64,000 nucleotides of DNA from Stappia sp. WLB 29 (GTDB taxonomy: Bacteria; Pseudomonadota; Alphaproteobacteria; Rhizobiales; Stappiaceae), in contig NZ_JALBGD010000010.1 in NCBI RefSeq assembly GCF_023507705.1, positions 124,001 to 188,000 of the forward strand, in the 5' to 3' direction. The translations under genes and the position numbers were made by a program. The notes beneath the pieces were generated by a model that worked only from the letters and a program-made list of their open reading frames with translations, did not search any database and was not told where the DNA came from. Shown in pieces: positions 15,658 through 39,387 of this stretch (positions are counted from its first letter, which is position 1; each line of letters starts with the position of its first letter).

Positions 15658-16563
15658 GTGTCCAACCGGGGAAGCCATCTGCGCCGTCTCGAGGCGCAAT
15701 CCATCGAGATCATCCGAGAGGTCGTCGCCGAGATGTCGCGACCGGTGATGCTCTACTCGATCGGCAAGGATTCGAGCGTCATGCTGCATCTGGCACGCAA
15801 GGCGTTCTACCCTGCGCCGCCGCCGTTTCCGCTGCTCCATATCGACACGACCTGGAAGTTCCGCGAAATGATCGCCTTCCGCGACCGCATGGCGGCGGAA
15901 GCGAGCATGGAACTGCTGACCCATACCAACCACCAGGGTCTCGCCGACGGCATCAACCCGTTCGACCACGGCTCGTCCTACTACACCCAGGTGATGAAGA
16001 CCGACGCGCTGAAGCAGGCGCTGTCGCATTACGGCTTCGACGCGGCCTTCGGCGGTGCGCGGCGCGACGAGGAGAAGTCGCGCTCCAAGGAGCGGGTGTT
16101 CTCCTTCCGCACCGCCTCGCACGGCTGGGACCCGAAGAACCAGCGCCCGGAGCTCTGGTCGATCTTCAACACGCGGGTGCGCCCGGGGGAATCGCTGCGC
16201 GTCTTCCCTCTGTCCAACTGGACCGAGCTCGATATCTGGCAGTACATCCGCTCCGAGAACATCCCCATCGTGCCGCTCTACTACGCGGCCGAGCGCCCGG
16301 TCGTGGAGCGCGACGGCATGCTGGTGATGGTCGACGACGAGCGCCTGCCGCTGCGCCCCGGCGAGGTGCCGCAGATGCGCCAGGTGCGGTTCCGCACGCT
16401 CGGCTGCTATCCGCTGACGGCGGCGATCGACTCCTCCGCCACCACCCTCGACGAGATCGTCACCGAGATGCTGATCGCCCGCACGTCGGAGCGCTCCGGC
16501 CGTCTGATCGACCACGACGAGGCGGCGTCGATGGAAAAGAAGAAGCGCGAAGGCTATTTCTGA
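15658..16563 (+). CDS. cysD: Sulfate adenylyltransferase subunit 2 (copy 1, NodP-like)
   Basis: A 301-residue PP-loop ATP pyrophosphatase that, with CysN, makes adenosine 5'-phosphosulfate from ATP and sulfate. The PP-loop is [14 protein letters not shown]. Other family segments are [48 protein letters not shown] and the C-terminal [11 protein letters not shown]. Start: the GTG at 15658 has GAGGAG six bases upstream and gives the usual CysD length; a GTG at 15640 is possible but poorly placed. It is followed 10 bp later by cysNC. A second, diverged cysD lies at 36.5 kb. Confidence 0.92.
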
Positions 16564-16573
16564 GGATTGAACG

Positions 16574-18460
16574 ATGAACCAGGCATTGCCTTCCCTCGCC
16601 GTCGAGGCGGCCGACTATCTCGGCGATCATGAACAGAAAGGGCTGCTGCGCTTTCTCACCTGCGGCAGCGTCGACGACGGCAAGTCGACGCTGATCGGCC
16701 GGCTGCTGCACGACACCAAGCGGGTGTTCGAGGACCAGGTGGCGGCCCTGCAGAAGGATTCGCGCAAATACGGCACGCAAGGCGAGGAACTCGACTTCGC
16801 GCTGCTGGTCGACGGGCTGGAGGCCGAGCGCGAGCAGGGCATCACCATCGATGTCGCCTACCGCTTCTTCGCCACCGAGGCGCGCAAGTTCATCGTCGCC
16901 GACACGCCGGGCCATGAGCAGTACACCCGCAACATGGCGACGGGCGCCTCCAACTCGGACCTGGCGATCATCCTGATCGATGCGCGCAAGGGCGTGCTGC
17001 AGCAGACCCGCCGGCATTCCTTCATCGTCTCGCTGCTGGGCATCCGCCACGTGGTGGTGGCCGTCAACAAGATGGACCTGGTCGGCTACGACCGCGAGGT
17101 GCTGGAGCGCATCCGCGCGGACTACGAGGCGTTCTCGCAAGGCTTCGGCTTCGAGACGCTGGAAGTGATCCCGATGTCGGCGCTGACGGGCGAGAACGTC
17201 AGCCGCCGCAGCGCGGCGATGGACTGGCACGACGGCCCGACGCTGCTGGAACATCTGGAAGCGGTGGATGTCGCCGGCGAGGACCGGCTCGGCCCGTTCC
17301 GCATGCCGGTGCAGTGGGTGAATCGGCCGAACCTCGACTTCCGCGGCTATGCCGGCACCGTGGTCAGCGGCGCGATCCGCCCCGGCGACAAGGTGGCGGT
17401 GGCCGCCTCCGGCCGCGTTGCCACGGTGGCGCGCATCGCCACCATGGGCGGCGACCTGGACGAGGCGGTGGCGGGCGATGCGGTGACCATCACCCTGCAG
17501 GAAGAGGTCGACATCTCGCGCGGCGACGTGCTGAGCACGCCGGAAAGCCGGCCGGAGGTCTCCGACCGGCTGAGCGCCCATGTGATCTGGATGGGCGACC
17601 AGGGGCTGCGCACCGACCGCAACTACGTGATCAAGGCCGGCAAGCGCAGCACCACCGGCGTGGTGGCGCGCATCGAGCACGGCATCGACGTCAACTCGCT
17701 GAAGCACCTGCCGGCGAGCACGCTGGCGCTGAACGAGATCGGCTTCTGCGAGATCCACCTGAGCGCGCCCATCGCCTTCGACCCCTACGAGGTCAACCGC
17801 GAGATGGGGTCCTTCGTGCTGATCGACCCGCTGACCAACCAGACGGTCGGCGCGGGCCTGATCTGGGCGAGCCTGAGGAAGGCGGACAACATCCACCGCC
17901 AGGCCTTCGACATCGACCGGGCGGCGCGCGCCAGGCTGACCGGGCAGACGCCGCGCGTGCTTTGGTTCACCGGCCTGTCGGGCGCCGGCAAGTCGACCAT
18001 CGCCAACCTGGTCGAGCAGCGGCTGCACGCACAAGGGAGGCTGACCTTCCTGCTGGACGGCGACAACGTGCGCCACGGGCTCAACCGCGACCTCGGATTC
18101 TCGGAGGCCGACCGGGTGGAGAACATCCGGCGGGTGGGCGAGGTGGCGCGCCTGTTCACGGAAGCCGGCGTGATCGTGCTGGTCTCGTTCATCTCGCCGT
18201 TCCGCTCGGACCGGCAGATGGCGCGCGACCTCTTCGCGCCGGGAGAGTTCGTCGAGATCCACGTCCATGCGCCGCTGGAAGTGGCCGAGACGCGCGATCC
18301 CAAGGGGCTGTACCGCAAGGCGCGGGCCGGCGAGATCAGCAATTTCACCGGCATCGACAGCCCCTACGAGGCGCCGGAAAGCGCCGAACTGGTGCTCGAC
18401 ACGGTGTCGCGCCCGGCCGAGGATCTGGCCGACGAGGTGATCCGCTATCTCGGCCTGTAG
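16574..18460 (+). CDS. cysNC: Bifunctional sulfate adenylyltransferase subunit 1 / adenylylsulfate kinase (copy 1, NodQ-like)
   Basis: A 628-residue fusion. Residues about 20-440 are the CysN GTPase: P-loop [32 protein letters not shown] and NKMDL, followed by two beta-barrels. Residues about 455-628 are the CysC APS kinase: [32 protein letters not shown] and [13 protein letters not shown]. The GTPase drives APS formation with CysD; the kinase phosphorylates APS to PAPS. The CysNC fusion is typical of rhizobial NodQ and other alphaproteobacteria. It is followed by a strong terminator at 18482-18527, ending the ugd-to-cysNC run. Confidence 0.93.
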
Positions 18461-37483: not shown

Positions 37484-37485
37484 CC

Positions 37486-39387
37486 ATGCGCAATCCGGAT
37501 CCGACCGCCTCCGACGAGGCCGTGCGCGAGTACATCCTGTCCCAGGTCAACAAGGACCAGCTGCGTTTCCTCACCTGCGGCAGCGTCGACGACGGCAAGT
37601 CCACCCTGATCGGGCGGCTGCTCTACGACACCAAGCTCATCTTCGAGGACCAACTGGCCGCGCTGGAGCGCGATTCCACCCGCCACGGCACGGTCGGCGA
37701 CGACATCGACCTGGCGCTGCTGGTCGACGGGCTGGAGGCCGAGCGCGAGCAGGGCATCACCATCGACGTCGCCTATCGCTTCTTCGCGACGGACCGGCGC
37801 AAGTTCATCGTCGCAGACACGCCCGGCCACGAGCAGTACACCCGCAACATGGCGACGGGCGCCTCGACCGCCGATCTGGCCGTGCTGCTGGTCGATGCGC
37901 GCAACGGGCTGATGACCCAGACGCGCCGTCATGCCTTCATCGCCTCGCTGCTGGGCATCCACCACGTGGTGCTGGCCATCAACAAGATCGACCTGGTCGG
38001 CTATTCGCAGGAGCGCTTCAACCAGATCGAGGCGGAGTTCCGCGCCTTCGCGCAAGGCTTCGATTTCGAGACGCTGGTGGCGATCCCGCTGTCGGCGCGC
38101 TACGGCGACAATGTTACGGCGCCGGGCGACAACATGCCCTGGTACGAGGGGCCGACGCTGCTGGAGCATCTGGAGACGGTCGAGGTCGGCCGCGACGACG
38201 ATGCCCGCCCGTTCCGCTTCCCCGTCCAGTGGGTGAACCGCCCGAACCTCGACTTCCGCGGCTTTTCCGGCACGATCGCCGGCGGGCGCGTCAGCGTCGG
38301 CGACGAGGTGGTGGTCGCCGCCTCGGGCCGCACCTCGACGGTGAAGACCATCCTGTCGCAGGTGGGCGAGACGCAAAGCGCGAGCTCCGGCGAGGCGGTA
38401 ACGCTGGTGCTGAACGACGAGATCGATGCCTCGCGCGGCGATGTCATTGCCGCCGCCGCCGCCCGTCCGGATGTCGCCGACCAGTTCGCCGCGCATCTGA
38501 TCTGGATGTCCGAGGAGCCGCTGCTGCCGGGTCGGTCCTATCTGCTCAAGATCGGCACGCGGACGGTCACCGCCTCGGTGACCGAGATCAAGCACAAGAT
38601 CAACGTCAACACGTTCGAGCGGGCCGCGGCCAAGACGCTGGAGCTGAACGAGATCGCCTTCGCCAACCTGGCGCTGACGGTGCCGGTCGCCTTCGACCCC
38701 TACGAGGCGAACCGCACGACCGGCTCGTTCATCCTGATCGACCGGCTGACCAATGCGACGGTCGGCGCCGGCATGGTCTGGTTCGCCCTGCGGCGGGCGA
38801 CCAACATCCACTGGCAGGCGCTGGAAGTGGACCAGGCGGCGCGCGCGCAGAGCCTCGGCCAGACGCCGGCGGCGCTCTGGTTCACGGGCCTGTCGGGCTC
38901 GGGCAAGTCGACGGTCGCCTCGCTTCTGGAAAAGAAGCTGCATGTGCGCGGCCGCCACACCTACACGCTGGACGGCGACAACGTGCGCCACGGCCTCAAC
39001 CGCGACCTCGGCTTCACCGATGCCGACCGGGTGGAGAACATCCGAAGGGTCGGCGAGGTGGCGCGGCTTTTCGTCGATGCCGGTCTGCTGACGCTGGTCT
39101 CCTTCATCTCGCCGTTCCGCAGCGAGCGCGCCATGGCACGCGAGCTGTTTCCGGACGGGCGCTTCATCGAGGTCTTCGTCGACACGCCCATCGAGGAGTG
39201 CCGCCGGCGCGACCCGAAGGGCCTCTACCGCAAGGCGGATGCGGGCGAGTTGCGCAACTTCACGGGTGTCGACAGCCCCTACGAAGCGCCGGAAAATCCG
39301 GAAATCCACATCCGCACGATGGGCCGCGACCCGGAGGAGATCGTCGACGAGATCATCGCCTACCTGGAGGCGAACGACCTGATCTAA
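37486..39387 (+). CDS. cysNC: Bifunctional sulfate adenylyltransferase subunit 1 / adenylylsulfate kinase (copy 2, NodQ-like)
   Basis: A 633-residue CysN-CysC fusion. GTPase motifs: [40 protein letters not shown] kinase motifs from about residue 460: [45 protein letters not shown]. It starts 2 bp after the cysD stop. It differs from copy 1 throughout the barrel domains, for example [21 protein letters not shown] segments. In rhizobia, nodPQ copies support sulfation of exported glycans in addition to cysteine synthesis; that role fits this copy. Confidence 0.92.

Follow-up and report, generated by a model that had tools for sequence, protein, structure and literature searches.

Why should a single capsule locus hold two operons for the synthesis of 3'-phosphoadenosine 5'-phosphosulfate (PAPS), and do the two serve the same purpose? 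The question is raised by a 64,000-nucleotide stretch (hereafter the window) of the genome of the marine bacterium Stappia sp. WLB 29 (4.75 Mb; contig NZ_JALBGD010000010.1, positions 124,001 to 188,000). The window contains two cysD-cysNC pairs, referred to as copy 1 and copy 2, each encoding the small subunit of ATP sulfurylase (CysD) and the GTPase subunit fused to adenosine 5'-phosphosulfate (APS) kinase (CysNC). A first-pass annotation of this DNA had described both pairs and proposed that one of them is dedicated to sulfating a capsule, by comparison with nodPQ of Sinorhizobium. Our survey of the genus suggests that copy 2 is most likely the PAPS supply of the capsule, coming and going with the export block. 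We further consider it somewhat probable that this is a capsule locus with a sulfated polysaccharide, in which copy 1 would serve assimilation and copy 2 would supply PAPS to a sulfotransferase encoded in a variable slot.

Two complete cysD-cysNC pairs in separate clades

Both pairs are complete and have the ends given in the first-pass annotation. The two CysD proteins score 511.7 and 530.8 bits against TIGR02039 (cut-off 396.6), and the two CysNC proteins 1003 and 1045.3 bits against the CysN/CysC fusion model PRK05506 (cut-off 715; both NCBIfam). SIGKDSS, DTPGHE, NKxD, the kinase P-loop GLSGxGKST, DGDNVR, and SFISPFR are kept by both, so that each copy is CysD and CysNC by curated cut-offs as well as by conserved nucleotide-binding motifs. 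Outside the motifs they differ, as had been claimed: 219 of 307 aligned CysD residues (71.3%) and 385 of 628 aligned CysNC residues (61.3%) are identical. The cysQ gene, encoding the phosphatase for 3'-phosphoadenosine 5'-phosphate (PAP), is also present as described, above its family cut-off. An Rfam scan gave no match at the gathering threshold, and a promoter and terminator scan near copy 2 gave nothing that was used.

Whole-genome searches with CysNC, CysD, and PF01507 revealed no third cysD or cysNC; both known copies lie in this locus. PF01507 also matched a third protein, a CysH of contig C35 whose operon, judged by eye, is cysI-cysH; among the NCBIfam models it passes two general CysH cut-offs but falls short of the one for APS reductase. 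It carries CC and CxxC pairs, which we take to be a mark of APS-type enzymes and on which we did not rely. A Sat-type ATP sulfurylase was found in none of 14 Stappia genomes, while the control search was positive in 5 of 14 control genomes. The CysD, CysNC, PF01507, and Sat searches having found none, a hidden third ATP sulfurylase was rejected.

The descent of the copies was read from two quick trees under one model, with 143 and 58 paired CysD and CysNC rows respectively. The larger tree, to which E. coli was added by hand, is without G010 (L137), L054, L087, L114, and R. tropici CIAT 899, from which no clean CysD and CysNC pair was extracted, and without G027 (L156, broken cysD) and L085 (a duplicate of G012); the smaller tree is without 14 near-redundant Stappiaceae rows and most distant rows. 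The clade groups for the tests were named partly after the first tree had been seen. Copy 1 belongs to clade A (support 98 in the Shimodaira-Hasegawa-like approximate likelihood ratio test, SH-aLRT), together with the other placed resident copies of Stappia, three genomes of group g7, and the second copies of two g6 genomes. Copy 2 belongs to clade B (SH-aLRT 92), together with Roseibium and the remaining copies of other Stappiaceae genera, with one other alphaproteobacterial row inside. The two copies therefore fall in two Stappiaceae clades and not side by side, which is what the tree proposed with the first-pass annotation was to establish.

Forcing the two copies together was 1041.7 log-likelihood units worse in the approximately unbiased (AU) test (p 8.8e-6), and the sister pair was likewise rejected by CysD alone and by CysNC alone. 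Forcing all 18 Stappia rows together was 235.6 units worse (p 3.7e-44). Because both arrangements were rejected, the trees identify the two pairs as separate, old lineages with no duplication within Stappia; a recent duplication is ruled out, in line with the earlier claim that the pairs had diverged too far for one. Copy 2 was either gained in Stappia, or kept here and lost elsewhere. Conceivably, clade A settled as the resident operon of the genus, with clade B turning up again in capsule blocks. As a separate case, the Stappiaceae genome G015 has two cysDNC operons about 387 kb apart (C2:2894456 and 3281721; L142 and L143), which are close relatives of copy 2 and have zero branch length between them.

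An origin of either copy from NodPQ was also ruled out: forcing three NodPQ rows with the copy 2 group was 530.8 log-likelihood units worse (p 2.6e-52), and with the copy 1 group 502.6 units worse (p 5.6e-5). Two of these rows stand among annotated nod genes, and the third (S. meliloti SM11) comes from an unannotated record. No nod gene was named among the window proteins scanned, which do not cover every open reading frame. Since neither copy groups with NodPQ, the comparison with Sinorhizobium is good for function but not for descent.

Copy 2 and the capsule export block across Stappia

Of the 14 Stappia genomes examined, 13 have cysD; G006 (85% complete) gave no cysD match and is outside the 13, and G010 was counted as clade A by identity only (88% to CysD1 and 79% to CysNC1). 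At the resident place, ugd-cysQ-cysD-cysNC next to a type I polyketide synthase (PKS), 12 of the 13 carry a clade-A operon. Clade A is the only cysDNC in six of these genomes; with no Sat-type enzyme detected, these six must depend on it for assimilation.

Two operons are present in six genomes (G000, which is the window genome, G002, G004, G008, G012, and G013). Copy 2 lies in the same accessory block in five of them, with CysD 97-98% identical and with two kpsE genes, kpsT, kpsM, rhamnose genes, and glycosyltransferases common to all five. The second operon of G013 is a clade-B cysQ-cysD-cysNC on another contig, accompanied by kpsE, kpsM, kpsT, and a sulfotransferase gene. Across the genus, copy 2 is present or absent together with the capsule block. 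Further, relatives of kpsE, kpsT, and kpsM are found near all seven Stappia clade-B operons, and no such relative turned up within the 40-kb stretches surrounding the operon of the six genomes that carry clade A alone. In G007 (C1, L135:9909-12754), the clade-B operon is the only copy and sits at the resident ugd-cysQ place, which suggests replacement in place.

From the protein families and this distribution we propose the following route. CysD and the GTPase part of CysNC would make APS, and the kinase part of CysNC would convert it to PAPS. Copy 1, resident with cysQ, would feed cysteine synthesis, with the reduction genes located elsewhere, and CysQ would remove the by-product PAP. Copy 2, from the accessory block, would supply PAPS to the slot-encoded sulfotransferase, which may place sulfate on the glycan before or during export.

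The surroundings of the two pairs (Table 1) include homologues of KpsM, KpsT, KpsE, and KpsC, the set by which an ABC-transporter-dependent capsule locus is recognized; KpsE is strong by E-value and below the TIGR01010 cut-off. The earlier description of a capsule locus is borne out: the exporter is of the ABC type for capsules, and there are genes for sugars and for glycosyltransferases as well as one that resembles a sulfotransferase gene. No KpsD-type outer-membrane channel was named among the window proteins scanned, and the genome was not searched for KpsD.

Table 1. Positions of the cysD-cysNC pairs and surrounding features in the window.
Feature	Position	Strand	Basis or remark
KpsC-type capsule polysaccharide biosynthesis protein	565..2238	+	PF05159
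Alpha-oxoamine-synthase-like aminotransferase	2270..3502	-	Aminotran_1_2
Type I PKS (KS-AT-DH-ER-KR-ACP)	3697..11379	-	
ugd, nucleotide sugar (UDP-glucose) dehydrogenase	13011..14330	+	
cysQ, PAP phosphatase	14390..15229	+	TIGR01331 287 bits, cut-off 228.8
cysD1, small subunit of ATP sulfurylase (resident copy, clade A)	15640..16563	+	GTG start 15640 or 15658
cysNC1, GTPase subunit of ATP sulfurylase with fused APS kinase (clade A)	16574..18460	+	
Three-gene ABC importer (NMT1/SsuA-like binding protein, ATPase, permease)	18632..21363	+	
hyp23, family-less capsule-linked gene	23001..24092	-	
KpsE/BexC-like export protein a	24120..25691	-	TIGR01010 E 4.5e-70, 236.5 bits, below cut-off 437.5
KpsE/BexC-like export protein b	25576..26859	-	TIGR01010 E 2.1e-69, 234.3 bits, below cut-off 437.5
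kpsT-like exporter ATPase	26888..27547	-	general ABC matches, below polysaccharide-exporter cut-offs
kpsM-like exporter permease	27538..28440	-	ABC2_membrane
rmlC, NAD epimerase, rmlD, rmlA	29695..33277	+	rmlD, rmlA named by reading translations
RgpF-like protein and two methyltransferases	33290..36251	+	
cysD2, clade B accessory copy	36524..37483	+	
cysNC2, clade B accessory copy	37480..39387	+	
galE-like gene; protein of 1713 aa carrying two glycosyltransferase domains of family 2	39527..45621	+	galE-like: from reading the translation
HAD-type gene	45647..47612	+	frame broken near 47.1 kb here
Sulfotransferase-like gene, type i	47645..48517	+	motif pair HVPKCAGTT ... LREP
Methyltransferase in slot	48580..49254	-	PF13578

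Upstream of copy 1, the aminotransferase and the PKS are presumably rkpG/wcbT-like and rkpA/wcbR-like respectively. In 11 of 13 Stappia genomes the ABC importer adjoins the resident cysDNC; it perhaps takes up a sulfur source. The set of rmlC, epimerase, rmlD, and rmlA, in which no rmlB was named, is a probable dTDP-rhamnose supply. Past the capsule locus, norD-, norB-, and norC-like genes for nitric oxide reduction (53148-57874, minus strand) were named by reading translations.

The gene tentatively referred to as hyp23 is linked to this type of exporter beyond Stappia. Its relatives occur on 6 of 72,556 plasmid records, at least 5 of which also carry cysD, and they adjoin kpsT and two kpsE-type genes in all five plasmid loci read (on Shinella, Ensifer, and Ciceribacter plasmids). 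Among sampled genomes it is rarer in the class, where only the window genome of 385 drawn has it, than in the family (11 of 87 genomes, five of them the block-bearing Stappia). We considered hyp23 as a sulfotransferase on account of an LLRDP stretch and rejected it: neither hyp23 nor its Ensifer relative has a Pfam match, the Pfam and PDB matches are otherwise at chance level, and profile comparison with six sulfotransferase sets gave a probability of 28% or less. A structure prediction of hyp23 without alignment had a mean predicted local distance difference test score (pLDDT) of 39.8.

Sulfotransferase-like genes and a proposed division of labour

The position after the HAD-type gene is a variable slot, whose contents differ among the five block-bearing genomes and include three types of sulfotransferase-like gene. 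In the window the slot holds type i and a methyltransferase; in G002 and G004, type ii, which matches PF03567 (E 8.9e-14 and 1.7e-14); and in G008 and G012, a methyltransferase joined to type iii. A further type, iv, lies in the second locus of G013 and matches PF03567 (Sulfotransfer_2) with 22.8 bits, just above the cut-off of 22. The HAD-type gene itself is one open frame in G002 and G012, and its break in the window is either a mutation or a sequencing error.

Type i has a relative that matches residues 4-255 of its 290 at 34% identity (E 9.7e-34). This relative has no Pfam match, but resembles the type iv protein of G013 (phmmer E 1.9e-7). The predicted sulfotransferase function is thus based on Pfam for types ii and iv, on motifs and transitive similarity for type i, and on motifs for type iii. 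PAPS genes share one cluster with a sulfotransferase by Pfam in G002, G004, and G013; in the window their partner is a candidate sulfotransferase, named from motifs and transitive similarity. In profile comparison, with one or two sequences a side, type i scored 95% with type iv and under 5% with types ii and iii, so that a shared ancestry of the slot genes is not established. It is conceivable, if less likely than not, that the end of the block is a cassette site that swaps unrelated sulfotransferases while backbone, export, and copy 2 stay fixed, that the same glycan may accordingly carry different sulfate patterns in different strains, and that hyp23 and the paired KpsE proteins may form a dedicated part of an exporter variant for sulfated glycans.

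A motif scan and phmmer over 14 stretches of the 13 Stappia genomes found sulfotransferase-like genes in six stretches, one per two-copy genome (6 of 6), and in none of the seven single-copy genomes after two hits had been dismissed. The dismissed motif hits, one in G004 and one in the single-copy G011, were judged to be noise outside the reading frame. In G013, a further phmmer hit was taken for a neighboring methyltransferase sharing an N-terminal piece.

A number of observations weigh against the reading proposed here. The first concern the sulfotransferases. The window gene for which the first-pass annotation had claimed sulfotransferase function is a motif-bearing candidate, but it lies outside the interval covered by that annotation, and a Pfam search up to an E-value of 10 listed no match for it, PF03567 included; its structure prediction without alignment has a mean pLDDT of 39.6. 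Type iii matches PF10364 (NKWYS, 3.2e-6 in G008) and no sulfotransferase family, and was called by motif alone. The capsule may then be unsulfated, with cysDNC as neighbors by history and the slot genes acting on something else; types i and iii would fit this, as would the fact that sulfation of the capsule is predicted from genes alone. We regard this as unlikely, as type ii and the G013 gene do match PF03567, and known sulfated-capsule clusters have the same content.

The association between copy number and sulfotransferase genes is also open to question. It has only about two independent events behind it, given the close kinship among five of the six genomes with two copies. The genes were already in view when the motif pattern and the queries were made, and for single-copy genomes six of the seven stretches measure 40 kb, vs. 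60-75 kb for the others. In addition, a whole-genome search placed PF03567 at 23 places, with a match in all 14 Stappia genomes: three of the places are at cysDNC loci (G002, G004, and G013) and 20 elsewhere, two of these in the window genome. For PF13469 there were matches in 8 of 14 genomes, including one in the window genome, and for PF00685 in 2 of 14; none of them lies at these loci. Sulfotransferase-family genes as such are therefore not confined to two-copy genomes; only their placement beside cysDNC is. PAPS has other possible users as well, given the PF03567 and PF13469 genes elsewhere in the genome.

Other points bear on the assignment of roles to the copies. Copy 1 is itself beside capsule-type genes (PKS, ugd, and cysQ), and the two pairs flank the exporter genes (24120-28440), with copy 1 about 6 kb away and copy 2 about 8 kb. 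There is a single cysQ, the only one of five genome matches above the CysQ cut-off. G007, with its clade-B operon at the resident place, has kps genes but no sulfotransferase in 60 kb. These points would suit a sulfated capsule fed by undivided operons, that is, one shared APS/PAPS pool to which copy 2 adds dosage or other regulation. Both copies encode complete CysD, CysN, and CysC with intact motifs, clade A and clade B are each the sole cysDNC in some Stappiaceae genomes, and the other PF03567 and PF13469 genes of the window genome could draw on the same pool. We consider a shared pool possible but doubtful, since a second, clade-B operon was seen in Stappia only with the accessory block (five genomes) or with the kps and sulfotransferase locus of G013.

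In 43 further Stappiaceae loci outside Stappia, mostly about 20 kb long, sulfotransferase motifs were found at 3 of 5 clade-A loci (G018b, G019, and G024) and at 0 of 38 others, and phmmer with six queries over the same 43 loci gave no match. Clade A lies beside a PKS in the three g7 genomes (G019, G024, and G029). Because of these motifs and PKS genes, clade A is also linked to sulfation outside Stappia. The roles could then be reversed, with copy 1 dedicated to the capsule and copy 2 housekeeping; the Roseibium rows fall in clade B, as do most of those from other Stappiaceae genera, and the exporter of the window is nearer copy 1. Such a reversal appears very unlikely, however, as clade A must be assimilatory in the six Stappia genomes that have no other cysDNC and no Sat, and copy 2 is accessory in Stappia.

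On balance, the reading with copy 1 in assimilation and copy 2 in capsule sulfation is weakened by the position of the exporter nearer copy 1 and by PF03567 genes elsewhere in every Stappia genome. The split between the copies is likely but not settled, because copy 1 is beside capsule-type genes, kps is nearer copy 1, and clade A is near sulfotransferase motifs in other genera. The earlier proposal that one pair is dedicated to capsule sulfation is thus upheld insofar as copy 2 tracks the capsule block, but it had not named the pair, and the dedication goes no further than likely.

Comparison with known sulfated-capsule clusters

The locus adds, from the Alphaproteobacteria, a probable sulfated-capsule cluster that brings its own supply of activated sulfate, and its slot offers candidate sulfotransferases outside current Pfam models. 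It also offers natural strain comparisons, between single-copy and two-copy relatives and between slots with differing sulfotransferase-like genes; the predicted split of PAPS between assimilation and surface sulfation is therefore directly testable. No publication on a sulfated capsule in Stappia stood out among the matches listed.

Within the Alphaproteobacteria, the NodPQ proteins of Sinorhizobium and Mesorhizobium are likewise an extra CysD-CysNC pair that provides PAPS for sulfating exported glycans, and M. loti requires nodPQ for its sulfated polysaccharide according to a review (PMC6192434). They form a tree branch separate from both Stappia copies. Closer in gene content are the plasmids pgSHIWSC3 of Shinella sp. 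WSC3-e and pCTYH.Ch1_1 of Ensifer adhaerens, each of which combines a hyp23 relative, two kpsE-type genes, kpsT, kpsM, rmlA, and cysDNC. The Shinella plasmid also has the PKS and aminotransferase, as the window does; unlike the window, both plasmids have one cysDNC each in the stretches read, and both are outside the tree sample. On the 144-kb pgSHIWSC3, the region 20000-115000 (L240 and L241) holds the PKS, the aminotransferase, the two-KpsE exporter, rfbABCD, and cysDN.

Clusters of this kind are already known from two marine bacteria whose capsules are reported to be sulfated. In Vibrio sp. KMM 8419, second copies of cysC, cysN, and cysD lie inside the capsule locus with sulfotransferases, kps, and rhamnose genes, much as in the window with its candidate sulfotransferase, and the authors regard PAPS and sulfotransferase genes in one cluster as a hallmark (PMC11641403). 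The capsule locus of that strain holds the second copies, whereas the two operons of the window both lie within or next to the capsule locus, and searches of the genome gave no further copy. The cluster of Cobetia marina KMM 1449 consists of kpsETMD, kpsSC, a bifunctional cysN/C, cysD, cysQ, a lipid-carrier wcb operon, rhamnose genes, and a sulfotransferase gene (PMC11766843); it shares kpsE-T-M, kpsC, cysN/C, cysD, cysQ, and the rhamnose genes with the window and, putatively, the sulfotransferase and the lipid-carrier wcb genes. The capsule structure is reported to be sulfated, whereas the window is known from genes alone, and the portion of the report at hand mentions no second cysDNC. Compared with that account, the window has two operons of separate descent, two kpsE-type genes, and hyp23. 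As far as our literature searches go, what is new in Stappia is the presence of two old operons side by side, together with a slot of varying content.

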